From Vannielia sp. (lineage in GTDB: Bacteria > Pseudomonadota > Alphaproteobacteria > Rhodobacterales > Rhodobacteraceae), in the NCBI RefSeq assembly GCF_029212645.1, contig NZ_JARGND010000008.1, positions 1-64,000 of the forward strand: a stretch of DNA of 64,000 nucleotides, read 5' to 3'. The position numbers and the translations under genes were made by a program. Of this stretch, positions 8,519-28,563 are shown piece after piece. Numbering within the stretch: position 1 is the first letter of the stretch; every line of letters begins with the position of its first letter. The notes below the pieces were generated by a model, which was given only the letters and a program-made list of their open reading frames with translations, did no database searches and was not told where the DNA came from.

Positions 8519-8523
8519 AAAGT
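8519..8523. repeat. Target-site duplication AAAGT, left copy
   Basis: AAAGT here is repeated at 28477-28481, directly outside the two transposon termini (TGTCGAATGCC on the left, TGCCAGATGCC on the right read inward). Five base pairs is the duplication length known for Tn7-like and Mu-like elements. Confidence 0.85.
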
Positions 8524-8529
8524 TGTCGA

Positions 8530-11488: not shown

Positions 11489-11608
11489 AAGTATGACAAG
11501 CCGTATGAATACCTTCAAGAGCTCCGGAAAATTGGAGCTCCAGTCGAAGCTTCCGATTTTAGCAAGTATCTGACTAAGGTCGAATACAAAATCCTCAATA
11601 AGGATGGA

Positions 11609-12025: not shown

Positions 12026-12302
12026 TGGGGGATGCGGATATTTTTTGGCGAACTCCTCAAGTGAATGGCGAAAAATAGACGAAATTGACAAAGGCGAGTT
12101 GTTACATCTTCTTAACCGATTTCTGGAAGAAGATGTTGAGATGGACGCTCCTGACGGAGTTAATCTTCAGAATGAGGTTCATAAGATTGTTTATTCACAC
12201 ATTTTTCAAAAACTATCGGCGCTGACAGAAAGTAAATCCTCTTTCAAGGATGATAGCGAAAGGCTCTATTTCGATGAAATAAACAAGTACTCGTCAGTAT
12301 GA
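12006..12302 (+). CDS. Small partner protein of the PHP-ATPase
   Basis: This 98-aa protein starts at an ATG inside the last codons of the ATPase frame, overlapping it by 20 bases, which suggests translational coupling and a shared function. It begins MKILRIDGGCGYFLANSS and continues with acidic helices (LLHLLNRFLEEDVEMDAPDG, SHIFQKLSAL). I recall small proteins with a similar start beside PHP/SMC-type ATPases, but I cannot name a characterised family. It has no signal peptide or membrane segment. It is probably a regulatory or structural subunit of the same defence-type system. That this partner frame is intact while the ATPase has a stop suggests the lesion is recent. Confidence 0.65.
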   Translation: MKILRIDGGCGYFLANSSSEWRKIDEIDKGELLHLLNRFLEEDVEMDAPDGVNLQNEVHKIVYSHIFQKLSALTESKSSFKDDSERLYFDEINKYSSV

Positions 12303-12863
12303 TGGGAGGCTAAATTTCGTCATGGTATTCTGAGGTAAACAAGAGCCTCTTGGGTAAATTGTCGCACTCCCAAAACGTTACATACTTAATCGAAGCTGCA
12401 TTGGACTTTGAATTTCATTTTCAATGCCAATTGTTTCGCCCTCGGTCGTTTTGGCTTGGATAAATGTCCGCTTTGGACGTGGACAGGGTTGCGTTCGCCC
12501 TTGCAGCGAACGGCAACTCTCCGCCCATTCTGCGGAACGACACGACCGGCCCGTTGCGGACATTGGCCAGAGAAGCGAGATGTTGCGGTCGCAACCCGCA
12601 TTCCCGACATCCGCTGCAACCGCGAAAATTGATGCAAGTCGAACTTACAGTCTGTGGAGAGGCCGTGTGTACAGGCCGAGACTACTAGCGTGGTTTACGA
12701 CAGCCCTCCCCGATAGTTGCGCAGAAAAATCAACGGGAGAAACTAATTACGCTATTATTTCTCTTTTTATCCATGATGGGCGACATCAGGTAGAGCAAAA
12801 GGCTTGCATGAACAATTGGTTGAATGGCAACGTAGATCAATCCAATTTGATATGGCGCTTTTT
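12303..12863. other. Cargo spacer without a recognisable gene
   Basis: Only short frames lie here, on both strands, and none looks like protein. The G+C-rich part between about 12450 and 12640 differs in composition from the A+T-rich PHP operon before it and may be a fragment of displaced chromosomal DNA. The promoter of the 12864 gene should lie at the right end, but I cannot point to clear boxes. Confidence 0.4.
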
Positions 12864-15800: not shown

Positions 15801-16277
15801 TTCTTACCGGTAGCACATAGCGGCAACACCAGCTCGTCCATTGAAGAGGCCGACATAGTCAAATCCTTGGTGGAAGATATTTTAAACCAAGGCGCAGCAT
15901 GGACGGATCGGGATGGGGTGACCAAGCCGGTCACACTTGAGGATATTCTGATCATTGCGCCATACAACGCGCAAGTGATTGAAATTCAGAAGTGTCTGCC
16001 GACTGCACGTGTTGGAACCGTTGATAAATTCCAAGGTCAGGAAGCACCAATTGCGATCTATTCGATGACAACTTCAAGTCATGCGGAGGCGCCAAGAGGC
16101 ATGGAATTTCTTTACAGCGGTAATCGCTTCAACGTGGCGATTTCTCGGGCTCAGTGTTTGGCCATTTTGGTCGCGTCGCCTCAGGTTTTTGAGGCTGACT
16201 GTCAGACACCGCACCAAATGCAGTTGATCAATGCATTTTGCCGATATCTTGAGGTGTGTGAGAATATCGAGGCTTGA
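12864..16277 (+). CDS. TM0106-family RecB-like nuclease fused to Upf1-type SF1 helicase
   Basis: The product is about 1137 aa. The N-terminal third is a RecB-like nuclease: GRADVL and YEIIDTKLARE give the D and D-x-K metal and lysine residues, followed by LQLCLYADLL. A cysteine set (CGH near residue 19, then CDVCRWEQQC) probably holds an Fe-S cluster. An RNase H-like segment (FFDIESDQFVGEQGLEYLLG ... DDCFATKSLRDWL) follows. The C-terminal half is an SF1 helicase: Walker A GPPGTGKSFTG, Walker B DVLVVDEAGQM, motif III GDPQQLEQP, TTYRLHPEI, and motifs V-VI VGTVDKFQGQEA and FNVAISRAQ. I start at the ATG at 12864 because the family begins directly with this segment; an in-frame start 20 codons upstream exists. 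It probably degrades or processes nucleic acid. A defence role is inferred from context. Confidence 0.85.
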   Translation: MKIINDTIQLSATDLVGHLNCGHLTALDVQVATGAIKRPENYDPLLEILRERGQRHEDAYIQHLRDAGHQLTKIEGVDITDSTVDATLEAMRNGSEIIIQAALRHGRWSGRADVLRRVEGPSDVGDFSYEIIDTKLARETKGRTVLQLCLYADLLANAQGRPPEKVFVVAPWSDYQPQEFRFADYAAHFRRVKAAAENALELPEDQIEYPDPKSHCDVCRWEQQCDNRRRADDHLCLVAGISKNQISELQANGFGTAKTLADMPSPVPFQPQRGAPASFERVRAQAAIQVFARETGERKFEFLDVVSEFGFAALPKPSTGDVFFDIESDQFVGEQGLEYLLGYSYFDDAGAEQYEQDWAFDRVSEKACFERFVDFVTARRADHPDMHIYHFGGYEAGALKRLMGRYATREDEVDNLLRGKVLVDILTVTKHAIRASVESYSLKKLEPFCGYERKVSLRDANMALTRVTAGLELDDIPSIEVDTKAVVAAYNADDCFATKSLRDWLEDLRVTRVAEGTEIPRPEPGQDGPSEELSEQQQRVLALIEQLTNDIPVDPEERSSEQQARWILAYVLDWHRRENKAVWWEKFRLQALSGIELLEEKAGIGRLQLIDVVETSKTGIPTHRYKFDAQDTDVRGGEGLHNVGGDKVGTAVAVSSENQTVDIKKSKATAAVHPEAVFAHKFIDPKEQAASLFRLGEYVAENGIEGDGLYKSARELLLRAPMDIGGQPFQADGEGTLDAALRVAREMNGGVLPIQGPPGTGKSFTGAQMVCELVRQGKKVRITANSHKVIRNLIDKVIEAAPTMGVDLTCIQKPEQGNQEADGPNLIFAKINDDVLGKLANGEAQVAGATHFFWAREDAFEAVDVLVVDEAGQMSLANVLAVSQAAQTVIMLGDPQQLEQPTQGTHPDGTGVSALDHLLGGRQTIEPSQGLFLGTTYRLHPEICAFNSELFYESKLHAVEGCEQQLVETESAASGAGMRFLPVAHSGNTSSSIEEADIVKSLVEDILNQGAAWTDRDGVTKPVTLEDILIIAPYNAQVIEIQKCLPTARVGTVDKFQGQEAPIAIYSMTTSSHAEAPRGMEFLYSGNRFNVAISRAQCLAILVASPQVFEADCQTPHQMQLINAFCRYLEVCENIEA

Positions 16278-16465
16278 AGCTTTCACAAACTGCAACAACG
16301 CGTTGGCATCAGACCAAAGTATGCAGCAGCCCATTTACGCATGCTTCCCGCCATGAATTTAGAACGATACGACCTGCCCATTGAGCATGCCGTGCAACGT
16401 TTAAGTTTTCCAAGGCAATTGAGACTTTCCACATTTGCAGGCAATGGCTTTCTCACCGGGAACAT

Positions 16466-16595
16466 CAACATCTTCGAAACCATCGACGAGGTGCAGCAGA
16501 TTGCCACTGAGTGGCTCTGGTCTTACAACCATGAACGCCCCAACACGGGCAACGGCGGGATGCCCCCCGCCCAGAAACTGAGAATGGCCGCGTAA
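16466..16595 (+). pseudogene. Fragment of an IS3-family transposase (OrfB C-terminus)
   Basis: The translated end INIFETIDEVQQIATEWLWS then YNHERPNTGNGGMPPAQKL is the C-terminal tail of an IS3-family DDE transposase (rve domain end, YNHxRPH motif). The catalytic core is gone and the sequence before ~16466 is unrelated. A GC run at about 16609-16640 (GCCCCCGC ... GGGGGGATTACC) just past the stop could be the former right inverted repeat. The rest of 16278-16758 holds no gene. The remnant shows that the cargo has been built by successive insertions. Confidence 0.7.
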
Positions 16596-16758
16596 ATTCT
16601 ACGACCAAGCCCCCGCAAAAATGGGGGGATTACCCCCCCAATATGCCTCTCCGAAAGCCTATGATTGACAGCACGGTGGGTTTGCCGGAAGTTTCGCCAC
16701 ACGGCGCTGTCACATTTGGGCAAAAGCGTTTGTTTCGGTGGCAGGAAAGGGCAGATCC

Positions 16759-18678
16759 ATGGCTGATATCGCAATCGATACGATCCAGACAGAATTATTC
16801 GACGAGGCCATCGCATCGCCGCAACTGCTTGCCGATGTCGCTCAGTTGGAAGGTTATATTTCCGAAACCTATTCAAATCGCTCTTTCGTCGAGTTGCTCC
16901 AGAACGCCGACGATGCCGGGGCAAAACGGTTTCACGTTAGGCTTCTGGAGGACGGTATTGTTTGCGCCAACGATGGTCGTTTATTCACCGAGGCCGACCT
17001 CCGCAGTATTTGCCGATCCGGATCGTCAACCAAGACTCGCGGTCAAACGATCGGCTATCGAGGAATCGGGTTCAAATCGGTCGCCGCCCTGTCCGAGCGG
17101 GTTCAGATCCGCAGCGGCGCCATAGCGGTAATCTTTGATCGGGACCGTACGTCGCGGCTAACCGGGCTGGATCGCGAAAAAGTTCCGTTGATTCGGATTC
17201 CGCACCACGCAACTCCGGCTGACGTGGTCAAATCGCTGGATATCGCCCTTGATGGCATGCAGACGATCTTTGTTTTCGAGAGGATCGACATGCAGCGTGC
17301 TCTCGGCGATCTGCAATCCATTGGTGATGATTGTCTTCTATTCCTGCGCAATATCGAGGACGTGACGCTGGACATACTTGGTCAGAAACGTTCATTTCGC
17401 TGCCGACGCTTGACCCGGAACGGGGTACATACACTCGAGATCGACACTCAGGGTGAAACCCGCCAGTGGGAAGTCTACCCGGGGAGTGGCGTCGAATTCG
17501 CTTTCTCCAAATCTGGCAGGCAATGCGTGCCGTTACGCAATGAGGAAGCACTGGTTCATGCCTTCCTGCCGTCGACTGAGATCACGGGTCTCGGCATCCG
17601 GGTCAACGGCGATTTCAGCACTGATCCGTCGCGCACGCGGATCGTGCTCGACGACAGGACGCTGCGTCTCATCGACGAGGCGGCGGCGAAGGCGCTCGAA
17701 ATGATGCAACGAGGCCTCACTGGCGATGCCCATAAGGATCTAATGTCCTGTCTTGCGTTGAACGTAGACGCCGCTGCCATCGCCTTTATGAAACCATGCT
17801 TTGGCACCGAACTCATCAAGGCGTTGCGAGCACGTGCCGACGGATGCTTCGACCAAGTGGCTCTGCGTCCGACCTGGCTGAATGCAACTGATTTCCGGAA
17901 GACTGCCGAAGCGGCGGGACTCGAGGTGCTGCCGAAACAGATCACCGACGAGGAGGACGAGGCCCTCCACCAGACGATGAAGATGCTTGGGGCAAAGCCC
18001 GCGGACGATAACCGCCTGATCGAGGTTCTTGACCCGGTCCGACTATCTGAACAAGGTCGTAAAGACGTCATCGACCACGCACGCAAGCTGCAAAGCCTCG
18101 GTGCGCCTCAGGCAGATAAACTCTTGTCCCTAAAGGGGTTCGCCGCAAGTGAGGACGGGCATGCCGTGTCTTTGCGAGAGGCTATCCGGTCGGAGAACCG
18201 CGCGCGCCCAGCGGCGGAGTTCCAGTCCGACCCGTTAGTTTTTGCCCAAGTCGACGACGTTCTTTTCCATCCGGCCTGGCAGAGCGAAGCACGGCGCGAG
18301 AACACGATCTCGGTTTCGCGCTGGCGAAAGGGCGAGAACGTAGTCGCCGAAATATTCCGAAGCCAAGGGTACGAAGTCGAGGATTGCAGTCGGCAGAACC
18401 TTGGCTATGATCTGCTGGCTAAAAATCAAGAAGGCGATTATTTCATAGAGGTCAAGACCATCAATCGCGCGGGCGAGCCGTTCATCATGACCTCGAATGA
18501 AGAGGCCGTGGCACGTGAAAAAGGTAACCGTTACCTTGTCGCGCTGCAGCGCGAGCTGAATGACTGCGTCGAACTTGCGGTCATACGCGACCCCGCAAAC
18601 AGTCTCCAGCTCGATCGGCAATGGGTCTGGGAATGTTCGACCTACGACTACAGGCCGCGTAGGTTTCCGACTAAGTGA
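16759..18678 (+). CDS. GHKL (HSP90/sacsin-like) ATPase with C-terminal DUF3883-type nuclease-like domain
   Basis: This 639-aa protein opens with a GHKL ATP-binding fold of the sacsin/HSP90 type: N-box ELLQNADDAGA at residues 45-55 with N49, CANDGRLF at 69-76 and the glycine-rich lid GYRGIGFKSVAAL at 99-111. The middle is unassigned. The last ~120 residues resemble DUF3883, a PD-(D/E)xK-like domain: GYDLLAKNQEG and FIEVKTINR supply D and E-x-K, then EEAVAREKGNRYLVAL. The ATG at 16759 has a good AGGAAAGGG ribosome binding site; the upstream GTG at 16738 is less likely. Such ATPase/DUF3883 fusions recur in defence islands and could restrict foreign DNA, but no function has been shown here. GC is closer to the host than the PHP operon, so it was probably acquired separately. 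Confidence 0.8.
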   Translation: MADIAIDTIQTELFDEAIASPQLLADVAQLEGYISETYSNRSFVELLQNADDAGAKRFHVRLLEDGIVCANDGRLFTEADLRSICRSGSSTKTRGQTIGYRGIGFKSVAALSERVQIRSGAIAVIFDRDRTSRLTGLDREKVPLIRIPHHATPADVVKSLDIALDGMQTIFVFERIDMQRALGDLQSIGDDCLLFLRNIEDVTLDILGQKRSFRCRRLTRNGVHTLEIDTQGETRQWEVYPGSGVEFAFSKSGRQCVPLRNEEALVHAFLPSTEITGLGIRVNGDFSTDPSRTRIVLDDRTLRLIDEAAAKALEMMQRGLTGDAHKDLMSCLALNVDAAAIAFMKPCFGTELIKALRARADGCFDQVALRPTWLNATDFRKTAEAAGLEVLPKQITDEEDEALHQTMKMLGAKPADDNRLIEVLDPVRLSEQGRKDVIDHARKLQSLGAPQADKLLSLKGFAASEDGHAVSLREAIRSENRARPAAEFQSDPLVFAQVDDVLFHPAWQSEARRENTISVSRWRKGENVVAEIFRSQGYEVEDCSRQNLGYDLLAKNQEGDYFIEVKTINRAGEPFIMTSNEEAVAREKGNRYLVALQRELNDCVELAVIRDPANSLQLDRQWVWECSTYDYRPRRFPTK

Positions 18679-19012
18679 TTTTCGGGATTATCTTCAGCTC
18701 AACCGGAAAAGCTTTCGCGTAGACCGTCTCGGAAAGAGTTTCGATGCCAAAAAAGTTATCTGCCTCCAAATAAGCCGAAACGGATCCGCAAAGCTGGCGG
18801 TTTGCATTGTAGCAATTGATATTGATCTCGACATCAGCCGAAATGGAACTTCCGCCCGCTGCGGTGATTTCAGCCATAACGCTGACCTTATACTCGCCTT
18901 CCGAATCCGGCTCATCATCAACGGTCACCATCAAACCACCGATTTCTATTCCAGCTCTCTCTTCGAGCATTTCGAAGCGTTGCACGCAGTGAGTGACTTC
19001 CTTGAAGGGCAT
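18671..19012 (-). CDS. Hypothetical small protein, predicted beta-rich
   Basis: This 113-aa protein converges on the ATPase gene and overlaps its end by 8 bases. I start it at the internal ATG giving MPFKEVTHCVQRFEMLEER, because the longer frame to 19240 has a composition unlike protein. The alternating hydrophobic pattern (YKVSVMAEITAAGG, ISADVEININCYNA, LCGSVSAYLEADNFFGIE) suggests a beta-sandwich, reminiscent of FxLYD-type domains, but no signal peptide is visible. I do not recognise a family. Convergent orientation means it is not in the ATPase operon. Its placement at the boundary between cargo and transposition genes gives no functional clue. Confidence 0.55.
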   Translation of the reverse strand: MPFKEVTHCVQRFEMLEERAGIEIGGLMVTVDDEPDSEGEYKVSVMAEITAAGGSSISADVEININCYNANRQLCGSVSAYLEADNFFGIETLSETVYAKAFPVELKIIPKIT

Positions 19013-19366
19013 TATCGGATCTCCAGATACACTTGAAAAAATAGTACCCTGAGTTAACTTAGTACAGCGGCAATTTAGCTTATGGTACCAAATTAAACAG
19101 ATACTCGCCGGGGCCTCGACGGCCGCTTTATCGGAAACGGACTTACAGCTCGCAGGCGCGGCGAACTTCTGCTTTCCGCCGCTTTTGTGCCAGCGCCTGG
19201 TCCGAAGCTCGAAGGCGGTGGACGGGCTGGGAGCGGTCAACGACTGTTCACTTCATGGACCGCATTTTTGGGCCGAGGTTACATATCTACCGCTGTGCCC
19301 GACCGAGAGATCCGTTTTCCTCGCCATTCGGGCGTATGTAGAGAACACCGAAACGGCCTCTCGCCA
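19013..19366. other. Spacer between cargo and transposition operon, no gene recognised
   Basis: Frames across this stretch are short and lack start signals. The left part (about 19030-19110) is A+T-rich and could hold the promoter of the minus-strand 113-aa gene; the rest shows no repeat, RNA or coding character that I can identify. Confidence 0.4.
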
Positions 19367-19603
19367 CTACTCCCAACCTTCATCCAAGAAGCGTTTCATA
19401 TCGAAATCTGGATCTCGTGACCCCATGCGTTCAACCTGCTCCTGAAGCGAACGCACACGATTGCGCAGGTCTTCGTTAGCCTTCAAACGGTCGAGTTCGC
19501 GAAGCAACACCGTCCTTAGGTGGTCATTGTACACATCAGAAGACACATCCACCTCGGCCATCCGCGACAGCAGGGACTTCAAGCGCTCGACTTCATCATC
19601 CAT
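19367..19603 (-). CDS. Small coiled-coil protein downstream of tniQ
   Basis: This 78-aa acidic protein (MDDEVERLKSLLSRMAEVDV ...) is almost entirely predicted coiled coil, with heptad-like leucines in LRTVLLRELDRLKANEDL and LRNRVRSLQEQVERM. The start is fixed by AAGGAG eight bases before the ATG at 19603, 50 bases after the tniQ stop, so it is probably the last gene of the transposition operon. I know no named family. It may be an accessory factor, or regulate the transposition complex by protein-protein contact, but this is inference from position alone. Confidence 0.6.
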   Translation of the reverse strand: MDDEVERLKSLLSRMAEVDVSSDVYNDHLRTVLLRELDRLKANEDLRNRVRSLQEQVERMGSRDPDFDMKRFLDEGWE

Positions 19604-19652
19604 TACTGATGCTCCTTGCGACAACCTCATACTCCGCAACTTGCGATCGCTC

Positions 19653-20663
19653 TTAGGCGCGAACGTGTCGGCCACGGCAGGTGACTGTCGGAACCCCTTC
19701 CCTATCCAGCCGCCGTGCCAAATGTATCGGAGCAACCCGCGCCGACATGGCAAGCTGTCCAAGCGTGAGGAAACGCGTCTCAAATTCCAGAATGCTGGAT
19801 TGGGTTATCAGAGAATGAAGATGATTGGTATCTGCGTTGAGGCGTTTCGCGTGACCAAGGTAGCCCGCATCTCGAAGCGCCCGGATGGCGCCGACCCCAA
19901 TTTTCAGGTAGGCTGCGGCTTCTAGCGGCGTGAGGTCTCGCGTGGCGTTCGGCGTATCGCGCGCACCAACGTCCACATCTTGCGGCACATGGATCGCCTG
20001 AAGTCCTATCGCGTCTGCCCCCCGGACAAAACCGCCGACCTTGCCCTCCTGCCAGAGAGTGATCAGACGAACCAGTCCGATGCGCTGATGTCGGCAATGG
20101 TCGCGAAGCGGAAGGAAGGCCCCGGCATCGGGCAGTTCAGGCAAGGTAGCCGCTTCTGCCAAAAGCCGGTCCACATCCTCAGCGAGGACATAGCGCAGCG
20201 CGGTTCCAAACCGGATCGAGCGCAATATCCCTTTTTCAATCAGCCCCTTCACCTGCGTCGGGTGCACATTCAACGCTATTGCCGTGGATTTGAGATTTCG
20301 CAACCCGTTCCAGAATTCGATCGCTCTGGATAGCTGCTCAGGCGTTGTTTCCGTCAGCGCTGCGGACGGTGCCTCAGAGAGATTATCGACGTGACGGATC
20401 AGTCGTTTAAGAAACCCCACACTGAGTCCCGACTGTTCACGTGCGGTTTCAAACGACATGCGTTTAACGGCTGGCACCGGCCTGCCCAACACGCGTTTCT
20501 TAGGTTTCATCGTGTAGTTCCGGACTGCAAACGCATGGATGCTATCGACGATGGACTGGACCTCCGCTTCACCATGCGCGGCTCTTAGCCAGACATAAAA
20601 TGCCCCCAGATCTGTCGAGAAATAAGAACGCCGAGCGCCGGATCTGGATTTCAGCCCTTCCAT
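19653..20663 (-). CDS. tniQ: TniQ-like protein, C-terminal part (separate frame)
   Basis: This 336-aa frame begins MEGLKSRSGARR eight bases after the TGA of the upstream tniQ frame, shifted by -1 relative to it. It reads as the helical C-terminal half of a TniQ/TnsD protein, with several helix-turn-helix segments (ATRDLTPLEAAAYLKIGVGA, SILEFETRFLTLGQLAMS). Together the two frames would encode about 590 aa, close to the 519-aa second TniQ. It is either a real second polypeptide translated by coupling, a frameshifted (inactivated) TniQ, or the product of frameshifting; no classical slippery heptamer is visible at the junction. Confidence 0.7.
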   Translation of the reverse strand: MEGLKSRSGARRSYFSTDLGAFYVWLRAAHGEAEVQSIVDSIHAFAVRNYTMKPKKRVLGRPVPAVKRMSFETAREQSGLSVGFLKRLIRHVDNLSEAPSAALTETTPEQLSRAIEFWNGLRNLKSTAIALNVHPTQVKGLIEKGILRSIRFGTALRYVLAEDVDRLLAEAATLPELPDAGAFLPLRDHCRHQRIGLVRLITLWQEGKVGGFVRGADAIGLQAIHVPQDVDVGARDTPNATRDLTPLEAAAYLKIGVGAIRALRDAGYLGHAKRLNADTNHLHSLITQSSILEFETRFLTLGQLAMSARVAPIHLARRLDREGVPTVTCRGRHVRA

Positions 20664-20671
20664 GCAAGCCG

Positions 20672-21436
20672 TCAGCCCGTCCGGCCCATCGGAGAGAAGC
20701 GTAGCCCCTCGACGCAGAGCTCACGTTCAAGATCCGGATCGACATTCGCAGGACTTGGAAGGGATGATCCGCAGATAGCGCCACCAAGGCTCAAGCAAGC
20801 GCCGTGCAGTTGACTGAGCTCCAGCTCGCCTAGCCAATCCGCCTGCGGACCATGGTTGATCCTCCTCCTCACGTAAGCCTCGAATACGGTAGGAGCATAT
20901 ATCGGGCTCGCATCTGCAGCCTTTTTCACAACGTCGCTGTACCGGGAGATCTGGGCGACGACGTCGTAGGTTTCGTGCGAAGTTGCAGCACGAGGGAGCT
21001 CAACAAGAGGCGCCTTGTGATGCTCGCAGCCGTGCAAACACATGACGCTCCATTCCAGAAGCTGGTGTGCACCATGACGCCCCTCCCCTTCTAGCGCCTC
21101 TTCGATACATGCCGGACATACCCGTGTTGCAGTGCGTCGAAAGACGCCGGTACTGCTGCGGGCTTGCCCGACTCGGTAGCGTCCGATCCCGATTTTTTCA
21201 GGGTTCCATCGTGTCAAATTCGCTCGATCGAGCCCAGCAACATCGGCAAGCCCGGACAACTGGTCTGGATATACCGAGCGGAGGAACGGCCATCTCAGCC
21301 CCAAATCCGAGCATAGGTTCCGGGGAGAGATCGCGTTTCTCGCCGCGATCCGCGAAACGATGCTTGCAGGGGTCTCACCCGCAAAGGGCGTAACGGTCAA
21401 CCCGAGTTGTCGTTCGTACATTTCAACGTCACGCAT
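20672..21436 (-). CDS. tniQ: TniQ family transposition protein, N-terminal part
   Basis: This 254-aa product has the TniQ domain: start MRDVEMYERQLGLTVTPFAG, then ETPASIVSRIAARNAISPRN, and zinc ligands C107/C110 in TRVCPACIE with a second C/H pair in CLHGCEHHK near residues 133-140. TniQ links target recognition to the AAA+ protein TniB in Tn7-like and Tn5053-like elements. The ATG at 21436 overlaps the tniB stop as ATGCGTGA, so translation is coupled; an upstream in-frame start at 21493 is less likely. The frame ends early at TGA 20672-20674, and the remainder of a normal TniQ follows in the -1 frame. Whether this short form works alone is open. Confidence 0.8.
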   Translation of the reverse strand: MRDVEMYERQLGLTVTPFAGETPASIVSRIAARNAISPRNLCSDLGLRWPFLRSVYPDQLSGLADVAGLDRANLTRWNPEKIGIGRYRVGQARSSTGVFRRTATRVCPACIEEALEGEGRHGAHQLLEWSVMCLHGCEHHKAPLVELPRAATSHETYDVVAQISRYSDVVKKAADASPIYAPTVFEAYVRRRINHGPQADWLGELELSQLHGACLSLGGAICGSSLPSPANVDPDLERELCVEGLRFSPMGRTG

Positions 21437-22397
21437 CTTCGCCCCCGTCGCCAAAGCACTGCCTCGGGTTAATCCGGATGAAATCCTCAGCAAGAAACGG
21501 GTTGAGTCCCGGCATGGCCGCAGTCCGCATGAAGTAGACCTCCGCGAAATGGCGCTTGGAAAGCTCTGCTCCCAAGCCGTCAGCGCGAAGCGCGCGCGTC
21601 AGCGCTTCGACGGTGAGCTGCGCCAAAAGTCCAAATTCGTAGTCTGCCGCGTGCATCAGCCGCGACGCGAATTCAGTTGTTCTCACATCTTCATCGCACT
21701 GCACCTTTGCCCTGTCACAGTAGCGCGCTACGAGGCCTAAGACCTGATCCTGCCCCGCGTACGGCGAAAGGCGCTCAATTTCGATCGGATACACACGGCG
21801 AGCCAGCTGGTCATCCTGATTGATGATCGTTTTGAGGCCGGGCATTCCGGTGAGTAACAGGCCGACCGGCCACTGACTGTTCTCCATCAGGGATTTAAGC
21901 GTGTTGACGATTACCTGCCGCTCCTTGTCGGTTTGGTGCTGGGCCAAATCCTGCGCCTCATCCATGTGCATGAAGAGAGTTTTCCGCAACTTGAACTGCT
22001 GCTTTACGAGGCCCCAGATAACAGCCGCTGACCGATCGCGAACGAGCGGGTACCCTGCCGCATGGAGGGCCGCCGTCGCAACAAACTTCATCGTGGCCGG
22101 CGAAGGCACTTTGAACCCAACCATCTCGTTGATCCCATCTGGATCATCACACACCAATCGATTGTGGTAGCGACGCCTTAGCTCCAGGACCGCCGTTGTT
22201 TTACCGGCCCCTGAGCGCCCAACGAGGACGATGCCCCTGAGGTCGGAGACTATGCCCTCTTCGAGATCTGCGCGCCGTTGTTCGAGTAGTTGGTCAAAAT
22301 AAGTATCAAGACGTTCGTAGGCCAGCGTCGGGACATAGGCGGACCGTATGTCTTGAATGATCTGGCGGACTTCAGGGTTATTCTTGTTCATCTTCAT
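21429..22397 (-). CDS. tniB: TniB/TnsC AAA+ ATPase, transposition regulator
   Basis: TniB/TnsC is the AAA+ ATPase that assembles on target DNA and passes the site choice from TniQ to the transposase. The 322-aa product has Walker A GRSGAGKTT at residues 60-68, Walker B LFMHMDEAQD at 141-150 and the sensor-like stretch LLLTGMPGL, as in the TniB family; the C-terminal helical lid ends in IRINPRQCF. The start MKMNKNNPEV at 22397 overlaps the end of tniA by 20 bases, and its stop overlaps the tniQ start, so it is the middle of a coupled operon. The size and motifs are normal for an active protein. Confidence 0.92.
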   Translation of the reverse strand: MKMNKNNPEVRQIIQDIRSAYVPTLAYERLDTYFDQLLEQRRADLEEGIVSDLRGIVLVGRSGAGKTTAVLELRRRYHNRLVCDDPDGINEMVGFKVPSPATMKFVATAALHAAGYPLVRDRSAAVIWGLVKQQFKLRKTLFMHMDEAQDLAQHQTDKERQVIVNTLKSLMENSQWPVGLLLTGMPGLKTIINQDDQLARRVYPIEIERLSPYAGQDQVLGLVARYCDRAKVQCDEDVRTTEFASRLMHAADYEFGLLAQLTVEALTRALRADGLGAELSKRHFAEVYFMRTAAMPGLNPFLAEDFIRINPRQCFGDGGEDA

Positions 22398-24288
22398 CGC
22401 TGAATCTCCATTCAGGTTGGGGGTCGACAGTAAGAGGGGTTTGGGTTGAGGCATCGCTGACGTAAGGCGCACCCTCGCTGGCTGGTGCCTTGGACGCTGT
22501 AATGTCGGAAATAGTGCCTGTGAGGCTTGCCGTTCCTATGGACGGATGCACCTCGACCACTTCGTCTGGAACAGCGCCGAAACTCAGGCCGAAGAAGCTC
22601 TCGTGCTCCGCCCGTCGAATATCTTTCGCGCAAACGGTCAGAGGGCCGATCTGACGCCATGCGCGTTGGTGATCGTCGATCTGTTTAATACGCTCGAGTG
22701 CCGCATCGACGATCTCGATATGGAGGCGTGCCGCGGCCTTTTTTGATCGGCGCAGATCCCGGATAGTCGCTTCCCACACAGAAAGAGAGACACCGCGCGC
22801 ATTCTGTAGGCCTGCAGGAATCGTATGCCATGCATCGTCAAACCAGGCAGACAGACATCCCATATCCTCAGGGTCTATGCGTAGATCGATCTGTTGCGCA
22901 CCGCGACGCTGGAAAAAGGCTGCAAGATTGCGACTGGTGTAGGCAATGCCGCAGACCAGTACGCCGTGCCGACCAAGCTGACGTTTCAGAGGAATACCAA
23001 GGAAATGGCGCAGGACATGGGCTGATTTGGCAGGGCTATATCCGTAAAGCCCTATCAACCGGTCCCAAGTATCTGCGGGCGTAGCATACTCTAAACCGCG
23101 ATGCGGGCGGTGATGGTAAGCGTCGACGACGAAGCGGACCATGAGTTCCACAATGCTGTCAGCAGTATGTACCACATACTGATCAGCTGGATAGTCGCCG
23201 CGCTCTTGCGGGTTGCCAAACGTTCGACCCGTCAGAAAAGGCATGAGCATCGTGCCCAAAGTTCGGAAGACGCGCTCGATGCGCGACCGCAACTTCGGCA
23301 CGCCTGCTGGCAGGACTTCATATCCGATCCCGAGGTCCGATAGGGTGGCTTTGAAGTCTGGGTTGACGAAGGAAGACCCGTTATCCACGACCACGTTGAA
23401 GATGTGACCGTGCTGACTCCAGGCCTTCTTGCACCCGAGCTGTCTTGAAATCTCGCTCTTGTTTCGCATGGCCAACCACAGGGTTGCCAATGCCGTCTCG
23501 ACATTGGGCGCCTTTGCGACCTTGATTGCCAGGATCACACGTGTTGCAGCATCGATAGCTACGCACATCCAGAAGCGCCCGGTTCGAAGTTCGTCAAACT
23601 TAGGATCGCTCACATCGATACCCGCGTCTTCCAAGAACGTGAGGAGATCGATCTGCCACTCGTCCATTTCGATTCGCTGCATCGGAGCTTCGATTTCGAG
23701 CCCCTGACCATAGGGCCCGAACTTGTTCTTTGCTTTTGCGACCCCCTCACGCGCTGCACAGGTTTCGAACTGGTGCAACTCCGCTATGCGACGGTAAACG
23801 GTTCTCTTGGACACCTCACGCTCTGGAAGCTGATCATTCAGCGCGAGCGACTTGTTCAACTCGCGAATTTCCCGTTTTGCCTCATCCGCGACGCGAGGAA
23901 CGTAGACTCGGTTTGGGTGTAAAAATGTCTTGATCGCCGTCTGCAGGATATTCTCGACTTGAGACGAGACCCGCTTGGCGTTGGCGCCGTTGAATCGGCT
24001 TCTTTTTACGAAACACATGGGATCATGTGTTTTCTGCCACTCCCGCACCCAGGCCATAAGGGCTGTCCGGCCCGGATGCTTCATGGCGAGGAGCTTTCCA
24101 AGCTCTGACCCATCCTGGCCAAGGCGTATCTGCTCCAGAATCTTAGCCTCGACGCGCTTGCCCAACTCAGGGAGAAATGCGACGCAGGGGTCGTTGGAAC
24201 GGCTTACTTCACCATCTGCTTCCGCGTCGAGAAAGCACTCAACGTAAAGCTGCTTGCGGAAAATCTGAGCCTTCTCGGCGGCGCTCAT
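22378..24288 (-). CDS. tniA: TniA/TnsB DDE transposase
   Basis: This 636-aa protein is the Mu/TnsB-type DDE recombinase that joins transposon ends to target. The catalytic triad reads D209 in IEMDEWQID, D302 in VVVDNGSSF and E338 in RSRIERVFRTL, with the usual C-terminal Mu-type beta-barrel region (RQLGRHGVLVCGIAYTS). An N-terminal region of ~190 residues with helix-turn-helix character (REVSKRTVYRRIAELH) should bind the ATGCCAAGCA-type end repeats. The ATG at 24288 overlaps the stop of the preceding small ORF as ATGA, which decides it against an upstream start at 24315. All key residues are intact, so it is probably active. Confidence 0.93.
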   Translation of the reverse strand: MSAAEKAQIFRKQLYVECFLDAEADGEVSRSNDPCVAFLPELGKRVEAKILEQIRLGQDGSELGKLLAMKHPGRTALMAWVREWQKTHDPMCFVKRSRFNGANAKRVSSQVENILQTAIKTFLHPNRVYVPRVADEAKREIRELNKSLALNDQLPEREVSKRTVYRRIAELHQFETCAAREGVAKAKNKFGPYGQGLEIEAPMQRIEMDEWQIDLLTFLEDAGIDVSDPKFDELRTGRFWMCVAIDAATRVILAIKVAKAPNVETALATLWLAMRNKSEISRQLGCKKAWSQHGHIFNVVVDNGSSFVNPDFKATLSDLGIGYEVLPAGVPKLRSRIERVFRTLGTMLMPFLTGRTFGNPQERGDYPADQYVVHTADSIVELMVRFVVDAYHHRPHRGLEYATPADTWDRLIGLYGYSPAKSAHVLRHFLGIPLKRQLGRHGVLVCGIAYTSRNLAAFFQRRGAQQIDLRIDPEDMGCLSAWFDDAWHTIPAGLQNARGVSLSVWEATIRDLRRSKKAAARLHIEIVDAALERIKQIDDHQRAWRQIGPLTVCAKDIRRAEHESFFGLSFGAVPDEVVEVHPSIGTASLTGTISDITASKAPASEGAPYVSDASTQTPLTVDPQPEWRFSDEDEQE

Positions 24289-24536
24289 CCGGCTGACGAG
24301 CGCGCTGCCAGCCAAGGCTCGACGAGCAGCATGGCATTAGAAAAATACCCGTATTCAACGGACGCCTTGCTCTCATCAATCATGCGTTTGACATCAGCGT
24401 GGCTGAAACAGAGGAGTTCCGAGCTGCCGTCCAAGGGACGCAGCTCCAACGTGCTATCCGAGACGGCGCTGACGACATGTACTGTGCCACCTGCGATCAC
24501 TGCATCCGATTTGCTGACGCGAAGTCTTACTGCCAT
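24285..24536 (-). CDS. Small protein between tnsA and tniA
   Basis: This 83-aa protein lies exactly between tnsA and tniA with overlaps at both ends (TGATG with tnsA, ATGA with tniA). The sequence starts MAVRLRVSKSDAVIAGGTVH, then HVVSAVSDSTLELRPLDGSS and FSHADVKRMID, suggesting a small beta domain with a helix. The overlaps show it is translated as part of the transposition operon. I do not know a function for it. It may correspond to an N-terminal segment of TnsB that is fused in other elements, or be a bridging factor between TnsA and the transposase. Confidence 0.7.
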   Translation of the reverse strand: MAVRLRVSKSDAVIAGGTVHVVSAVSDSTLELRPLDGSSELLCFSHADVKRMIDESKASVEYGYFSNAMLLVEPWLAARSSAG

Positions 24537-25270
24537 CACCGGGCCTCCGGCATCGACAGCATGCTGGCTTCAGTCACCGGAAGTGAAAGGTCCGTCAGGA
24601 CGATCCCATCGAAGATCGCCTTGAAGCCTGAACGGAAGGCCCGCCCCTGCAGGCCGGCCGCGGCCACGACCTGCCCGAGTGACGTTTCACAGTTCATGCC
24701 TCGAAGTATTTGCTGAACTGCCGCGTCTGCTTCTGCATCCTCGCCCTGCCGGAACATGTGAAGCAATTCTGCATTGCGCACTTCCGCCGCAGAGAAGCTA
24801 CTGTCCGTGACAAGTAGCGCATCGTCCGCGAACTGCTTGGGGGTCTGCGTCTTGATCAACGCGAACTCTCGGTCGAACCCATTTCGCTCGACCAACCCAT
24901 CTGGTTTGACGGCGATCGCTATCCTTTTCCCATCTTCCAACGTGACTAGAAAATCGAAGGTATGAAACGTGGGTTTCCCTCCCTCGTTTCGATAGGTGAT
25001 CTGCGGCGGCTGATCCCAGATATTGACGACGGCGATCTGCGACAGCAGCACCAAGAGGCACTTTCGCTCAAGGTCGCTTTCAAAGATGAGCTGCCGCCAG
25101 GCCGCACTGGCACGTAGTTGTGCGATCACGAACCCGCGTCCGCTCGCCCGCGATCGTGCCGGAAACATCCGCGTCGCGCGGGTTCGCTCCGGCGGGACAT
25201 AAGGTCCCCCGAAATCATCATCATACATTGGCTTTTTTGCCCTGCACCGAAGGCATGCCTCTCGGTGCAA
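24536..25270 (-). CDS. tnsA: TnsA-like endonuclease of the transposon
   Basis: TnsA cleaves the 5' strands at the transposon ends, so together with TnsB the element is cut out instead of copied. This 244-aa protein shows the TnsA core: LIFESDLERKCLLVLL (E64/E68), IWDQPPQITYR, HTFDFLVTLEDGKRIAIAVK with D106 and K122, matching the restriction-enzyme-like E-D-(Q)K site. I take the TTG at 25270 because AGAGGA sits 5 bases before it; the ATG at 25228 (MYDDDFGGPY) has no ribosome binding site but is possible. It is the first gene of the transposition operon. The C-terminal part (residues ~170-244) should contact TniB. Confidence 0.82.
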   Translation of the reverse strand: MHREACLRCRAKKPMYDDDFGGPYVPPERTRATRMFPARSRASGRGFVIAQLRASAAWRQLIFESDLERKCLLVLLSQIAVVNIWDQPPQITYRNEGGKPTFHTFDFLVTLEDGKRIAIAVKPDGLVERNGFDREFALIKTQTPKQFADDALLVTDSSFSAAEVRNAELLHMFRQGEDAEADAAVQQILRGMNCETSLGQVVAAAGLQGRAFRSGFKAIFDGIVLTDLSLPVTEASMLSMPEAR

Positions 25271-25356
25271 CGGGTTCCTCTTTCATTGAGACAAGAGGCC
25301 CCTGCCCACAGAATCCACTGCACGCTTGACCGGAGCCGAAAGTTGGGTCATGAATG

Positions 25357-25386
25357 AGGTGTATCGGGCTTCAACTTGATACACCT
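25357..25386. promoter_or_regulatory. Inverted repeat upstream of the tnsA operon (candidate operator)
   Basis: AGGTGTATC at 25357-25365 and GATACACCT at 25378-25386 form a perfect 9-bp inverted repeat with a 12-base spacer, about 90 bp before the tnsA start and just downstream of the Ner-like gene. The spacing, near two helical turns centre to centre, fits a dimeric repressor. The Ner-like or XRE-like protein is the natural candidate. Confidence 0.5.
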
Positions 25387-25390
25387 AAAG

Positions 25391-25427
25391 GGCCTCTGGA
25401 GCTGTAACTCCGAGGCCTTTTGCTTTT
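25391..25427 (+). terminator. Rho-independent terminator between the Ner-like gene and the tnsA operon
   Basis: GGCCTC-T-GGAG, a six-base loop CTGTAA, then CTCC-GAGGCC make a ten-pair stem with one bulged T, followed on the plus strand by TTTTGCTTTT. The minus-strand side has fewer T residues, so it terminates plus-strand transcripts best but may also separate the Ner-like gene from tnsA. Confidence 0.55.
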
Positions 25428-25670
25428 CTAGGTCATGATTGCTCCTTCCTCTTGGAAGTCGGGAAACAAATCCTCCGGCGATGTGCCCACGGCCAAAGCC
25501 AGTGCTTTTTCAATGCGCTGAGATCGGCACATCCGCTTACCGACCAATGTCAGCGCGGAGTCGCTGACCCCAAGATCGCGCGAGATCTGCGCCAGTGAGG
25601 TTCCCCGCATCCTGAGTTCCGCTTTCAGACGCTCATGGGCGTCCAGATCTGCTTTTGTCGGGGTGCGCAT
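25428..25670 (-). CDS. Ner/Nlp-like DNA-binding regulator
   Basis: This 80-aa protein resembles the Ner/Nlp family of lambda-repressor-type HTH proteins known from phage Mu and related elements: LDAHERLKAELRMRGTSLAQ, then ISRDLGVSDSALT, and the tail VGTSPEDLFPDFQ. Ner of Mu represses early transcription, so this protein probably controls the tnsA operon that follows it. I start at ATG 25670 (MRTPTKADLD); a GTG at 25715 would add 15 residues. It diverges from the XRE-type gene at 25906 across the palindrome at 25785-25816. A terminator-like hairpin follows it. Confidence 0.75.
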   Translation of the reverse strand: MRTPTKADLDAHERLKAELRMRGTSLAQISRDLGVSDSALTLVGKRMCRSQRIEKALALAVGTSPEDLFPDFQEEGAIMT

Positions 25671-25784
25671 TGGGGCGATCTCCAGGTTGTGTGAGTGCAG
25701 ATGAGCCAAATTCACACCCCAGCTAAGGAACTCCCGCCGAAGCAGTCAACCTCGCAAACCACTGTCACAAAACAAAAACCATCC

Positions 25785-25816
25785 GGACCGATTGGTCCGC
25801 GCGGACCAATCGGTCC
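25785..25816. promoter_or_regulatory. Perfect 32-bp palindrome, candidate double operator
   Basis: The sequence is a perfect inverted repeat made of two operator-like units, GGACCGATTGGTCC (25785-25798) and GGACCAATCGGTCC (25803-25816), separated by GCGC. Each unit is itself a GGACC-n4-GGTCC dyad, 18 bp apart centre to centre. It lies between two divergent HTH regulator genes, as in lambda-type or C-protein switches, so one or both probably bind here. Confidence 0.75.
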
Positions 25817-25905
25817 ACCTACCTTGATTTCTTGACCGCTAAAGCGCTTTCTCAGCTAAGGTTCCTGAGTCGCCTTTTTGAGGCTCATCCATTGGATCAA
25901 GGGAT

Positions 25906-26286
25906 TTGGCCAGTTCGGACAAACATTACGAATCGATTGCTCGGCAGATAGGTGCAACCAATCTGTTGGCGCTTCGTATGTCTTCAGGGATGAGCCAGTC
26001 ACATTTCGCGACGGTCATCGGTTTGTCAGACCGCGCACTGCGTCGCTACGAGCGTGGAGAGCGTGAGCTTCCTCTAACGACACGGCTCGCGATCATCCAA
26101 GCGTTCAAGATCGATCCGTTGGCGAGCGATCAGTTAACCGCAGAGCTTGTGGGCTTGAAGCCGCGGACCTCTCGCCCGGTACGACGTGGCGGAAGACAAG
26201 GGATGAAGGTGTCTGGAGAACGCTGCGAAGAGAAAGTCAGGGCCGCAGGAAGCGAAACTATTCACCGCTCGGACAGCTTTTTTTAA
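25906..26286 (+). CDS. XRE-family helix-turn-helix regulator
   Basis: This 126-aa protein has a single lambda-repressor-type HTH: LLALRMSSGMSQSHFATVIG then LSDRALRRYERGERELPL, residues ~20-60. The C-terminal ~60 residues are basic and probably disordered (SRPVRRGGRQGMK), which could add non-specific DNA binding. The start is a TTG at 25906 with AAGGGA only two bases away, so the exact start is uncertain. It is transcribed away from the Ner-like gene, with the 32-bp palindrome between them, and probably forms a regulatory pair controlling transposition. No sign of a toxin partner is present. Confidence 0.72.
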   Translation: MASSDKHYESIARQIGATNLLALRMSSGMSQSHFATVIGLSDRALRRYERGERELPLTTRLAIIQAFKIDPLASDQLTAELVGLKPRTSRPVRRGGRQGMKVSGERCEEKVRAAGSETIHRSDSFF

Positions 26287-26548
26287 GGATCCGCGACGAT
26301 GTCTATTTCTGCGCGACAATTTACTTCATGATGCAGAACATCGCCTTGGCCTTCGATCTCCCCTTCGGATTCGAAGTTCATGGCGTCGACTGGATGTTTT
26401 TAGGCTCCTTCGGGGTGATCTTGCTCCTGCTCCCATCCGTCGTTGCAGAGTTGCCCATACTAAAGGCGTCACAATACCTCCTCAGGAATACGAAGGAGCG
26501 CTTAACCATGTAGTGCAACGGCATGCATAACGCAGAAGGGGCGTATTG

Positions 26549-26707
26549 TGTTGAAAAACTCTGATTCAGCGCGTTGGCTCTAAATTTGGCAGAACAAAGT
26601 TCTGATTTACTAAAATTTTGACAGCGTCAGTGGGAGAAATCAGGTTTCGAGGGAACGATTTCCCACTTTTTACGAAATTTGCAGATGCAGCAAAGAGTTT
26701 TTCGACA
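26549..26707. repeat. Small element with 13-bp terminal inverted repeats (MITE-like)
   Basis: TGTTGAAAAACTC at 26549-26561 and GAGTTTTTCGACA at 26695-26707 are inverted repeats with one mismatch, bounding 159 bp without coding sequence. This looks like a miniature, internally deleted derivative of an insertion sequence. I see no target duplication, so the insertion is old or the edges are wrong. The rest of 26287-26769 holds no convincing gene. Confidence 0.5.
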
Positions 26708-26769
26708 GAATCGGCTGTGATCGGCGATCTACTGTGCCTGGTACCAAGGTCCGCTGTGGGCCGAAAGGG

Positions 26770-28329
26770 TCATTTTTCGGTTGTTAGATAGGCATCTACA
26801 TCCTCACGCCAGTAGATCCGGCTTAGATCATGAGGCATCGCCAACAGGGCCACATTGGTATTTCTAAGCTTCATCGAAAGTGAGCCTTGTGGGCGCTGCA
26901 CGACTTCCGCGAACTCGCCCAAGGAAATAAAGGTCTCTCGGAAACGCGTCAGACTGTCAGCGGTAACAACAGTCGCCCCTCGGCGGTAGAGCTCTGAGGT
27001 ATCCACCCCGCACAACATTCCATGTTGGATCAAATATCCTACTGTTTTGGCCGTCACTCTTAACTGTCCGGCGGCGTCACCGATGGAAAAGCGGCTCTCC
27101 CGTGCGAGATCGGTTTCGTCCATAATAGATGTTCCGGATTTTCTACCTTCAGATGAACACTTTGCGTTTCGAAAGGACTTCTTCTCGCGCTCGTAGGCGT
27201 CGAGCATTCTTTGGGTAACAAAACTCATCGGTACGATACTGCCGTCAGCGTCACGCGTTGCGAGACCTCGATAAATCAGGTCTTCAGCATTGCGCTTGGC
27301 GACCCCTTTTAGTGAGATTGACTTCTGTGGGTTCGACGAAGCCTTGCCCTCCGAAGGCACGCCCAGCACCAGCACCCCTTTTCTGACGGAAAAATTGTTG
27401 AAAACGTGTCGCCGCACAACGTCACGCAGGGGCTCGAATTCATCGCCGAGGCTCCGGCTCTTCAGCCACGCCATCCAAGGGCCAAAGAGTCGACCAAAGA
27501 ACCTGCCGTCCGCGCCGTCCTCATGAGCCATGGCGGCAAGACAGTCGGTAAGGGCTACAGGACCATCTTTCAGTATGTCGTAGCCCAAGGCACCATAGGT
27601 CATCCAATCTCGCTCACTGTGCCCCGCCAGCGCAGCATCTGGCCCCTTTGCGATACGCAGCCCCAGCACTTCACATGCCCGTGACGCCACGTTGAGTTCG
27701 AGGCGGTCGATCCATCGGTCGCCCCGCCCGCTCAGGATGCGGTTCGTGAGATATGCCTCGAAAGGACTAGGAGTCGCCTTGAGCACCGGCTGATCCAAAA
27801 TCCAACCGTGGTGTTTTCGCAGCTGCGCCGCGAAATCTCTGGCGTCCTTGTTGTATTTCTCAACTGGAAGGCATGCGAGCATGCTGCCGTGTTCCGGGCA
27901 GCTCCTGATTGACGAAAATTTCCACTGGAGGCGACGCGGCACACGCCACGACTCCGCTGCTGATGGCATTTCGGACCGTATACACTCCGGGCAGACGCGG
28001 ATGCGCGTGCGTTGAAAGCTCTGAAGGGAGGCAAATTCTTCTCTCAGGCGAAAATGCCCCTTGCCGAGATGGCGGATAGAAACCCGCTCCAACGCGCCCA
28101 CATCACACCCTGCAAGCTGGGCCAATTGTTCTATGGCTACCTTCTCACCACGAAAGAGCGGGCCGATCGGAAAGGCAATGTCCCCGCAGAACCTCTGCAT
28201 CGATATTGCGCCGTTCCTGGCCGCAAGCCGCGACAGCAAGGAAGTAGCCGGCTCGCACGCGGCATGTGCCACCGTCAGCGGCAACTGCGGGAAATTCGTT
28301 CCGGGAGTGGCAGGTAGGCTTTTGACCAA
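26770..28329 (-). CDS. tniQ2: TnsD-like TniQ protein, probable selector of the tRNA-Arg target
   Basis: This 519-aa protein is a second, complete TniQ/TnsD family member. Its N-terminal TniQ domain has ATSLLSRLAARNGAISMQRF and the zinc site C113/C116 in RVCPECIRSE with C144/H147 in SCPEHGSML. A long helical C-terminus follows, including a MerR-like HTH (RFSIGDAAGQLRVTAKTVGY). In Tn7, TnsD binds the end of glmS and recruits TnsC; the gene's place beside the tRNA-side terminus, and the reuse of that site by a relic carrying the same gene, point to the same job for tRNA-Arg. Start is a TTG at 28329, and the relic shows the same region. It is separate from the tnsA operon and 140 bp from the transposon end. 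Confidence 0.88.
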   Translation of the reverse strand: MVKSLPATPGTNFPQLPLTVAHAACEPATSLLSRLAARNGAISMQRFCGDIAFPIGPLFRGEKVAIEQLAQLAGCDVGALERVSIRHLGKGHFRLREEFASLQSFQRTRIRVCPECIRSEMPSAAESWRVPRRLQWKFSSIRSCPEHGSMLACLPVEKYNKDARDFAAQLRKHHGWILDQPVLKATPSPFEAYLTNRILSGRGDRWIDRLELNVASRACEVLGLRIAKGPDAALAGHSERDWMTYGALGYDILKDGPVALTDCLAAMAHEDGADGRFFGRLFGPWMAWLKSRSLGDEFEPLRDVVRRHVFNNFSVRKGVLVLGVPSEGKASSNPQKSISLKGVAKRNAEDLIYRGLATRDADGSIVPMSFVTQRMLDAYEREKKSFRNAKCSSEGRKSGTSIMDETDLARESRFSIGDAAGQLRVTAKTVGYLIQHGMLCGVDTSELYRRGATVVTADSLTRFRETFISLGEFAEVVQRPQGSLSMKLRNTNVALLAMPHDLSRIYWREDVDAYLTTEK

Positions 28330-28452
28330 GCGAGGCTTCCGAGATCAGACAAAGGCTGGATTGGCCGGATCTTACGATCACCAGCTCAACTGAGAAACGC
28401 TGCTATGATTTCAGGAAATTCCGCCGACTTGGGTCAGTTACCTGTCACAAAA

Positions 28453-28476
28453 GTCGGTTTTGCTTGGCATCTGGCA
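28453..28476 (-). repeat. Right terminus of the transposon with TniA binding site
   Basis: Read inward from 28476 the end is TGCCAGATGCC, and GTCGGTTTTGCTTGGCAT (28453-28470) is the inverted counterpart of the left-end ATGCCAAGCA-CCGAC repeats. A weaker copy of the same site (TGGGTCAG at 28430-28437), conserved in the relic, may be the next one inward. Confidence 0.8.
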
Positions 28477-28481
28477 AAAGT
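28477..28481. repeat. Target-site duplication AAAGT, right copy
   Basis: It matches 8519-8523 and lies directly outside the right terminus, five bases short of the tRNA gene's CCA end. Confidence 0.85.
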
Positions 28482-28486
28482 TAAAA

Positions 28487-28563
28487 TGGCGCGCTGGGGA
28501 GGATTCGAACCCCCGACCCCTTGATTCGTAGTCAAGTACTCTATCCAACTGAGCTACCAGCGC
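28487..28563 (-). tRNA. tRNA-Arg, anticodon ACG
   Basis: Read on the minus strand, the 77-nt sequence folds as a complete tRNA: acceptor GCGCTGG/CCAGCGC, D arm GCTC/GAGT, anticodon stem CTTGA/TCAAG with loop CTACGAA (anticodon ACG, read as inosine-CG after editing), T arm GGGGG TTCGAAT CCTCC, discriminator G and an encoded CCA. C32 is present, the position thiolated by TtcA in some arginine tRNAs. The gene is intact; the transposon ends 10 bp beyond its 3' end, so the insertion does not damage it. It is the probable attachment site of the element. Confidence 0.96.

Follow-up and report, generated by a model that had tools for sequence, protein, structure and literature searches.

The DNA analysed here, referred to as the window, is a 64,000-nucleotide stretch from the beginning of contig NZ_JARGND010000008.1 of Vannielia sp. 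(Rhodobacteraceae), and the sole Tn7-like element within it occupies positions 8524-28476 (19,953 bp; Table 1). Read inward from a tRNA-Arg(ACG) gene at its right end, the gene order is tniQ2, a small helix-turn-helix (HTH) gene on the opposite strand, tnsA, tnsB, tnsC, a second tniQ gene (tniQ1) and the cargo. Pfam matches were obtained for all four of TnsA, TnsB, TnsC and TniQ, and TnsA and TnsB are encoded by separate open reading frames (ORFs) and not fused. The ends are paired, carry arrays of putative TnsB sites and are flanked by a 5-bp duplication; by its genes and by its ends, the element is Tn7-like.

The right end is separated from the CCA end of the tRNA gene by 10 bp (28477-28486), made up of the duplication AAAGT and the sequence TAAAA. 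A first-pass annotation of this DNA had placed the element end 10 bp beyond an intact tRNA-Arg(ACG) CCA end and had named a long TniQ as the last gene before that terminus. Both points are borne out: the element ends at 28476, the tRNA gene lies at 28487-28563, AAAGT is present at both ends, and the terminal gene is the 519-aa ORF TniQ2 with its Pfam TniQ match. Neither tniQ1 nor the remnant of an older tniQ2 and right end outside the left end was mentioned in that annotation.

Table 1. Features of the Tn7-like element and its attachment site in the window
Feature	Position	Strand	Details
Left target-site duplication	8519-8523		AAAGT; matches 28477-28481
Left terminus	starts 8524		TGTCGAATGCC... 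(TGTCGA...); AAAGT immediately before
Putative TnsB sites, left-end array	8530-8628	+	3 copies of 22 bp; direct-repeat family D3
Cargo region	8971-19036	+
PDC-M49A-like candidate defence gene, two ORFs	9905-11488, 11609-12025	+	Pfam, PADLOC
MkoA-like helicase/nuclease	12804-16277	+	Pfam, PADLOC
TmtA/sacsin-like gene	16738-18678	+	Pfam, PADLOC
TniQ1, frameshifted	19653-21493	-	ORFs 20672-21493 and 19653-20663; Pfam TniQ
TnsC, TniB-like AAA ATPase	21429-22472	-	Pfam TniB, AAA_22
TnsB transposase	22378-24315	-	Pfam rve above cut-off, Mu-transpos_C below cut-off
TnsA	24536-25270	-	Pfam Tn7_TnsA-like_N
Small HTH protein, between tniQ2 and tnsA	25906-26286	+	present in relatives too
TniQ2, 519 aa	26770-28329	-	Pfam TniQ PF06527, residues 18-151, E 2.5e-15
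Putative TnsB site, right end	28453-28474	-	inverted relative to left-end copies; inverted repeat I16
Right terminus	ends 28476		...CTGGCA; AAAGT immediately after
Right target-site duplication	28477-28481		AAAGT; then TAAAA, then tRNA CCA end
tRNA-Arg(ACG), intact, encoded CCA	28487-28563	-	ARAGORN

A TniQ2 scan of 84,980 species genomes gave 24 related loci. An intact tRNA-Arg(ACG) gene lies immediately before the right end in 17 of them, and in all 17 the tniQ2/right end faces the tRNA gene, which indicates orientation-controlled insertion at a fixed site. The spacing from CCA to the right end could be read in 16 and was 9-10 bp in 15 and 12 bp in one (L041); the remaining locus, L056, has an altered terminus and was excluded from the measured set. 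Three further loci (L046, L051 and L054) retain only a 3′ stub of the tRNA gene at a similar distance, and in another three (L047, L049 and L053) the right end abuts the left end of another element in tandem. The last locus, L058 (~9850-10153), keeps a right end together with a TniQ2 fragment of 51 residues but has no adjacent tRNA gene, and the tRNA-Arg(ACG) gene found elsewhere in that genome (one pattern match) does not carry this right end. The tRNA-Arg(ACG) target proposed in the first-pass annotation therefore withstands the check on relatives: tRNA-Arg(ACG) is the attachment site of this element family, with one possible exception (L058).

Searches within the family and among plasmids gave a similar picture. 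In 394 genomes of the bacterial family, TniQ2 relatives of >70% identity were found at six loci in five genomes, the window's own excluded: four at tRNA-Arg(ACG), one at a stub and one in tandem. These six overlap partly, by strain, with the 24-locus set, and the remaining TniQ matches in other family genomes do not exceed 35% identity. TniQ2 at 84-87% identity is also present in 10 plasmid records, of which seven were read. All five Phaeobacter inhibens copies lie 9 bp past a plasmid-borne tRNA-Arg(ACG) gene; both Tritonibacter mobilis copies have lost the right end. Three of the P. inhibens plasmids (L090, L094 and L095) keep a full-length tniQ2 beside the tRNA gene, and no TnsB like that seen at >80% in two sister plasmids was found in them.

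The 394 genomes were also searched with a pattern derived from the known right ends, tniQ2 not being required. Sixteen matches were found in 11 genomes, seven at tRNA-Arg(ACG), one at a stub, three in tandem and five elsewhere. The last five (L101, L107, L109, L114 and L116) are right-end-like sequences away from tRNA genes, with interiors that are in some cases mutually similar, and tblastn of these ~3-kb loci found no TniQ2, TniQ1, TnsA, TnsB or TnsC; they are possibly relics or short non-autonomous elements. A second, non-tRNA target for TniQ2 is unsupported, since these five off-tRNA matches are without transposon genes in ~3 kb; L058 remains the possible exception. By the same tblastn no transposon genes were found in L106 (at the tRNA gene) and L113 (in tandem), and L110 (at the tRNA gene) gave only a 39-residue TniQ2 match. 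For contrast, 61 stretches (L139-L199) were examined that surround other loci with a TniQ or TnsB, both from the family and from the window's genome; tRNA-Arg(ACG) was present in one (L140) and any tRNA gene in 16. Random insertion would be expected to fall within 12 bp of such a tRNA gene about three times per million.

Tandem arrays reveal what determines the landing spot. Directly outside the left end of the window element (~7824-8518, minus strand) lies the remnant of an older element, comprising the 5′ part of a tniQ2 gene and a right end, with two stops in frame and 77% DNA identity to the window's tniQ2/right-end region over 698 columns. AAAGT comes after the right end of this remnant; the newer element was therefore inserted between the tRNA gene and the older one. 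In genome G406, ATTCT separates the left end of one element from the right end of another and recurs at the tRNA side; in Celeribacter baekdonensis (G420), TCTTT marks both sides, although the array contains a further left-end-like sequence. In all three arrays, each with its own exact 5-bp duplication, the newer insertion landed 4-5 bp past CCA whatever lies beyond, which places control of the landing spot on the tRNA side and not in the downstream DNA. The site thus stacks elements, some of them with defence-like cargo.

A histidine-kinase gene is common to 16 of the 17 tRNA loci in the stretch examined and was considered as the target. It was ruled out, as no such gene is present in the examined stretches of the five Phaeobacter plasmid copies, L042 and L100; the plasmid copies stand at the tRNA gene nonetheless, and hence the tRNA gene and not its neighbour is the target. 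A genome of the same genus (G300) has tRNA-Arg(ACG) without this right end, but its neighbourhood is rearranged and it does not form a clean before/after pair with the window. The 26 tRNA genes at or next to elements represent nine different sequences, over which 3 of 14 acceptor-stem bases and 13 of 17 anticodon-arm bases are invariant. This comparison of element-associated tRNAs suggests that the acceptor stem may not be needed for recognition; tRNA function alone could keep the anticodon arm. These data would fit a reader that contacts the gene over its anticodon and T arms, at ~28-51 bp from the element's right end. Tn7 TnsD binds at a similar distance.

Both TniQ proteins of the family are long and under purifying selection. 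TniQ2 has the N-terminal TniQ domain of TnsD-type proteins, and its ratio of nonsynonymous to synonymous substitution rates (dN/dS) is 0.17-0.26 in seven pairs. Its AlphaFold model has a mean predicted local distance difference test (pLDDT) score of 60 and predicts two winged-HTH-like units at residues 413-519, where pLDDT blocks range from 46 to 82. The top Foldseek matches of the model were TniQ chains of CRISPR-associated transposons (CAST), at E 0.026 and TM-score 0.26, with no match at E<=0.001; by segment, the Xis and BldC winged helices were matched with probability near 1 and E above 0.1. A PDB sequence search with the TniQ alignment gave no match at E<=1. TniQ1, split by a frameshift in the window, is one open frame of ~600 aa in L040, L044, L047 and L049, and in the Phaeobacter element L089 its C-terminal end is in another frame too. 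Its C-terminal half has HTH, excisionase-like matches (below cut-off in another scan), the C-terminal region is conserved at 79% and 89% in two close relatives, and dN/dS is 0.16-0.24 in three pairs, with synonymous sites near saturation in two. TniQ1 and TniQ2 are 23-24% identical. Their origin by in-situ duplication was not rejected by the approximately unbiased test (p 0.085), and both trees separate them.

The two genes are closely associated. Besides the window, TniQ1 at >=58% identity occurs in seven of the 25 genomes or records examined for it (L035's genome not among them), and all seven are TniQ2 carriers. TnsB at >=81% was seen in six relatives (L040, L044, L049, L089, L091 and G406), and both tniQ genes are present in all six, the pair not always being intact. 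In the 16 genomes or records that carry TniQ2 but lack TniQ1, no TnsC exceeds 43%, and the TniQ2 there accordingly appears to be a relic. More distant relatives keep the pair as well: G420 has the order tnsA-tnsB-tnsC-tniQ1-tniQ2 in its array at tRNA-Arg(ACG), with TniQ1 43% and TniQ2 55% identical, and G406 contains a tnsC-tniQ1-tniQ2 relative on a contig that starts inside tnsC. In G406 a G420-type right end comes after the left end of the element beside the tRNA gene, which suggests that this relative stands in that tRNA array. The two proteins have evidently long travelled together. The first-pass annotation had predicted that TniQ2 itself recognises tRNA-Arg(ACG). As regards the target, that prediction stands; as regards the reader, the binder may be either of the two long TniQs that the family carries, both under purifying selection and both present with the matching transposase.

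We nevertheless regard TniQ2 as the likely reader of tRNA-Arg(ACG), alone or with TniQ1, judging from the distribution and relationships of the sequences. TniQ2 is found at tRNA-Arg(ACG), at its stub or in tandem in 23 of 24 loci. Element L151 (9199-16326), which lies 9 bp past tRNA-Ala(GGC), has the same order as the window element (tRNA, right end, TniQ, HTH, TnsA, TnsB, TnsC), and its one TniQ is located at the right end. In the TniQ tree, TniQ2 groups with the tRNA-Ala set with support of 97/91; the target groups were labelled after the tRNAs seen, 49 of 70 rows are unlabelled and the group table is descriptive. Five of the 61 contrast stretches (L152, L178, L184, L187 and L197) were left out of the tree for want of an uninterrupted TniQ frame of sufficient length. 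Several observations weigh on the other side. The grouping with the tRNA-Ala set receives only 54/51 in a smaller second tree, the TniQ2 model is weak (mean pLDDT 60), and tniQ2 is frame-broken in L044 and L045. No element with TniQ2 and a matching TnsC but without TniQ1 was found in these searches, while L097 and L100, whose ends are uncertain, have TniQ1 without TniQ2 in cis next to tRNA-Arg(ACG). In addition, L140 (9070-14129), with a single distant TniQ and a TnsC of 39% identity, starts 10 bp past tRNA-Arg(ACG), and L058 is the possible exception to the site rule noted above.

L097 and L100 lend support to an unlikely alternative, in which TniQ1, encoded in an operon after TnsC, reads the tRNA gene and TniQ2 has another role at a second target or in regulation. 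The well-conserved C-terminal region of TniQ1 and its excisionase-like HTH matches would suit TniQ1 as the reader. In L097, however, TnsA was not seen and only ~850 bp separate TnsB from the tRNA gene, so TniQ2 may have been lost. The TniQ1 of L100 groups with TniQ1s that have TniQ2, so the absence there appears to be secondary; the left end of L100 could not be located, and a full-length TniQ2 is located elsewhere on the same plasmid. The right-end segments of L097 and L100 are 79% alike over 234 bp and their proteins are far apart, so these segments may belong to another relic. Moreover, no second site for TniQ2 is established, and TniQ1 is frameshifted in the window. That TniQ1 and TniQ2 form an obligate pair and read the gene together, by split recognition, is to our minds just as improbable. 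The co-occurrence of both genes in the window, in the 7 of 25 genomes or records and in all six relatives with matching TnsB, and the persistence of the pair in G420 and G406, speak for it; the absence of TniQ2 in cis from L097 and L100, and the single-TniQ elements L140 and L151 at tRNA sites, speak against it, as does the breakage of one gene of the pair in several copies (tniQ1 in the window, tniQ2 in L044 and the C-terminus of tniQ1 in L089), the breaks being undated.

Targeting by guide RNA or by an integrase, not by TniQ, is extremely improbable, even though tRNA genes are frequently chosen by mobile elements of many kinds and by the guides of type V-K CAST (PMC11406308). Pfam analysis of 10 element proteins found no Cas family and no tyrosine or serine recombinase family (the rve match belongs to the core of TnsB), the sole Cas matches from PADLOC were weak Cas4 ones within the helicase, and the longest word common to the element and the tRNA region is 10-11 bp (the shuffled control failed). 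With no cas family among these 10 proteins and no shared word >11 bp, the element does not qualify as a CRISPR-associated transposon. The duplication is 5 bp long and is not a tRNA 3′ half.

Our preferred reading, to which we assign a probability of about 0.55, is that of a cut-and-paste Tn7-like transposon with tRNA-Arg(ACG) as its attachment site and TniQ2 most likely as a reader. The site, its spacing and duplications, its repeated use and the co-occurrence of two TniQs are directly observed. A TnsD-like protein would bind the tRNA-Arg(ACG) gene, probably along the stretch that spans its anticodon and T arms, and TnsC would then be recruited. TnsA and TnsB would place the right end of the element past CCA by 4-5 bp plus the 5-bp duplication, leaving the tRNA intact. 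In TniQ2, the N-terminal TniQ domain is predicted to contact TnsC and the C-terminal winged HTH pair to contact the tRNA DNA; TniQ1, the other full-length TniQ, probably assists at this site or acts in another pathway. A wider idea is offered tentatively and with some doubt: two full-length, divergent TnsD-like proteins of a CRISPR-free Tn7-like lineage may form a stable pair for one tRNA site, either by split recognition or as one reader plus a second, so far unseen pathway that the other full-length TnsD would drive.

Members of the Tn5053 family carry TniA, TniB, TniQ and TniR without TnsA and insert at res sites; the window element differs from them in having TnsA and a tRNA site. It is closer to Tn7 with TnsD at glmS, with which it shares TnsA, TnsB, TnsC and a TniQ-domain protein as well as insertion just past a conserved gene with the right end geneward (PMC11406308), but here the gene is tRNA-Arg(ACG) and a second long TniQ is present. 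As the first-pass annotation had stated, tRNA targets are known for some Tn7-like elements (PMC10293859, PMC11406308, PMC8649781). The TnsD of I-D CAST inserts past tRNA-Leu, at 30-33 nt for CyCAST (PMC10293859), and the large TniQ/TnsD of the I-B2 system PmcCAST directs insertion past tRNA-Val on a test plasmid (PMC10293859, PMC11406308). According to a review, different tRNA genes repeatedly became attachment sites via TnsD/TniQ (PMC11406308), and a survey in mBio (2021) notes elements inserted downstream of tRNAs (PMC8649781). The window element resembles the I-D (CyCAST, McCAST) and I-B2 (PmcCAST) systems in having a large TniQ/TnsD and inserting past a tRNA gene. It differs in that no cas gene was seen, TnsA and TnsB are separate instead of fused, both TniQs are long and the spacing is 9-12 bp as against the 30-33 nt of CyCAST, and it falls outside the tRNA-targeting I-B2 and I-D types. 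Dual TniQ-TnsD loci likewise have two TniQ-family proteins, the second usually being substantially smaller (PMC10293859), whereas here they are ~600 and 519 aa. Within the same bacterial family, L151 at tRNA-Ala(GGC) shares the order of genes and lies similarly close to its tRNA (9 bp past CCA); it differs in its single TniQ, in its TnsB (29% identical) and TnsC (34%) and in the tRNA used.

No paper that names tRNA-Arg together with Tn7-like elements came up in a literature search (preprints and most subscription-journal papers were outside its scope). Attachment of other Tn7-like elements to tRNA genes is already known; the tRNA-Arg(ACG) site with two long TniQs looks new. It adds to the Tn7-like repertoire a well-defined and repeatedly used attachment site, mostly 9-10 bp past CCA. 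The tRNA-Arg and tRNA-Ala elements of like design are natural pairs from which the choice of tRNA by TniQ C-termini could be learned, and the lasting double TniQ makes it possible to test why two long selectors are retained in one element. The stacking of elements at the site may also help to locate defence genes in these bacteria.

The cargo of the window element resembles candidate or known defence genes in sequence. The two PDC-M49A-like pieces correspond to PADLOC model positions 1-496 and 538-674. In the P. inhibens plasmid element L089 (23605-31359), the cargo comprises drt5 and genes for an ATP-binding protein, a SIR2-family protein and an HsdR-like protein.

Other TniQ or TnsB loci were recorded in the course of the analysis. 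L096, with a TnsB of 50% identity, was dropped, as neither a TniQ nor a tRNA gene was seen there. The window's genome contains another TniQ-like ORF outside the element (G000:C38:30108-30683, L197), 28% identical. Tn7-like loci near tRNA-Ala(GGC), tRNA-Lys(TTT) and tRNA-Arg(CCT) (L153, L156, L184 and L186) have a TGT-starting sequence 7-15 bp past CCA; several tRNA-Ala, tRNA-Arg(CCT) and tRNA-Lys neighbours were labelled by nearness, with the tRNA-side sequence read and the ends putative. In relatives of G230, eno adjoins the tRNA gene.

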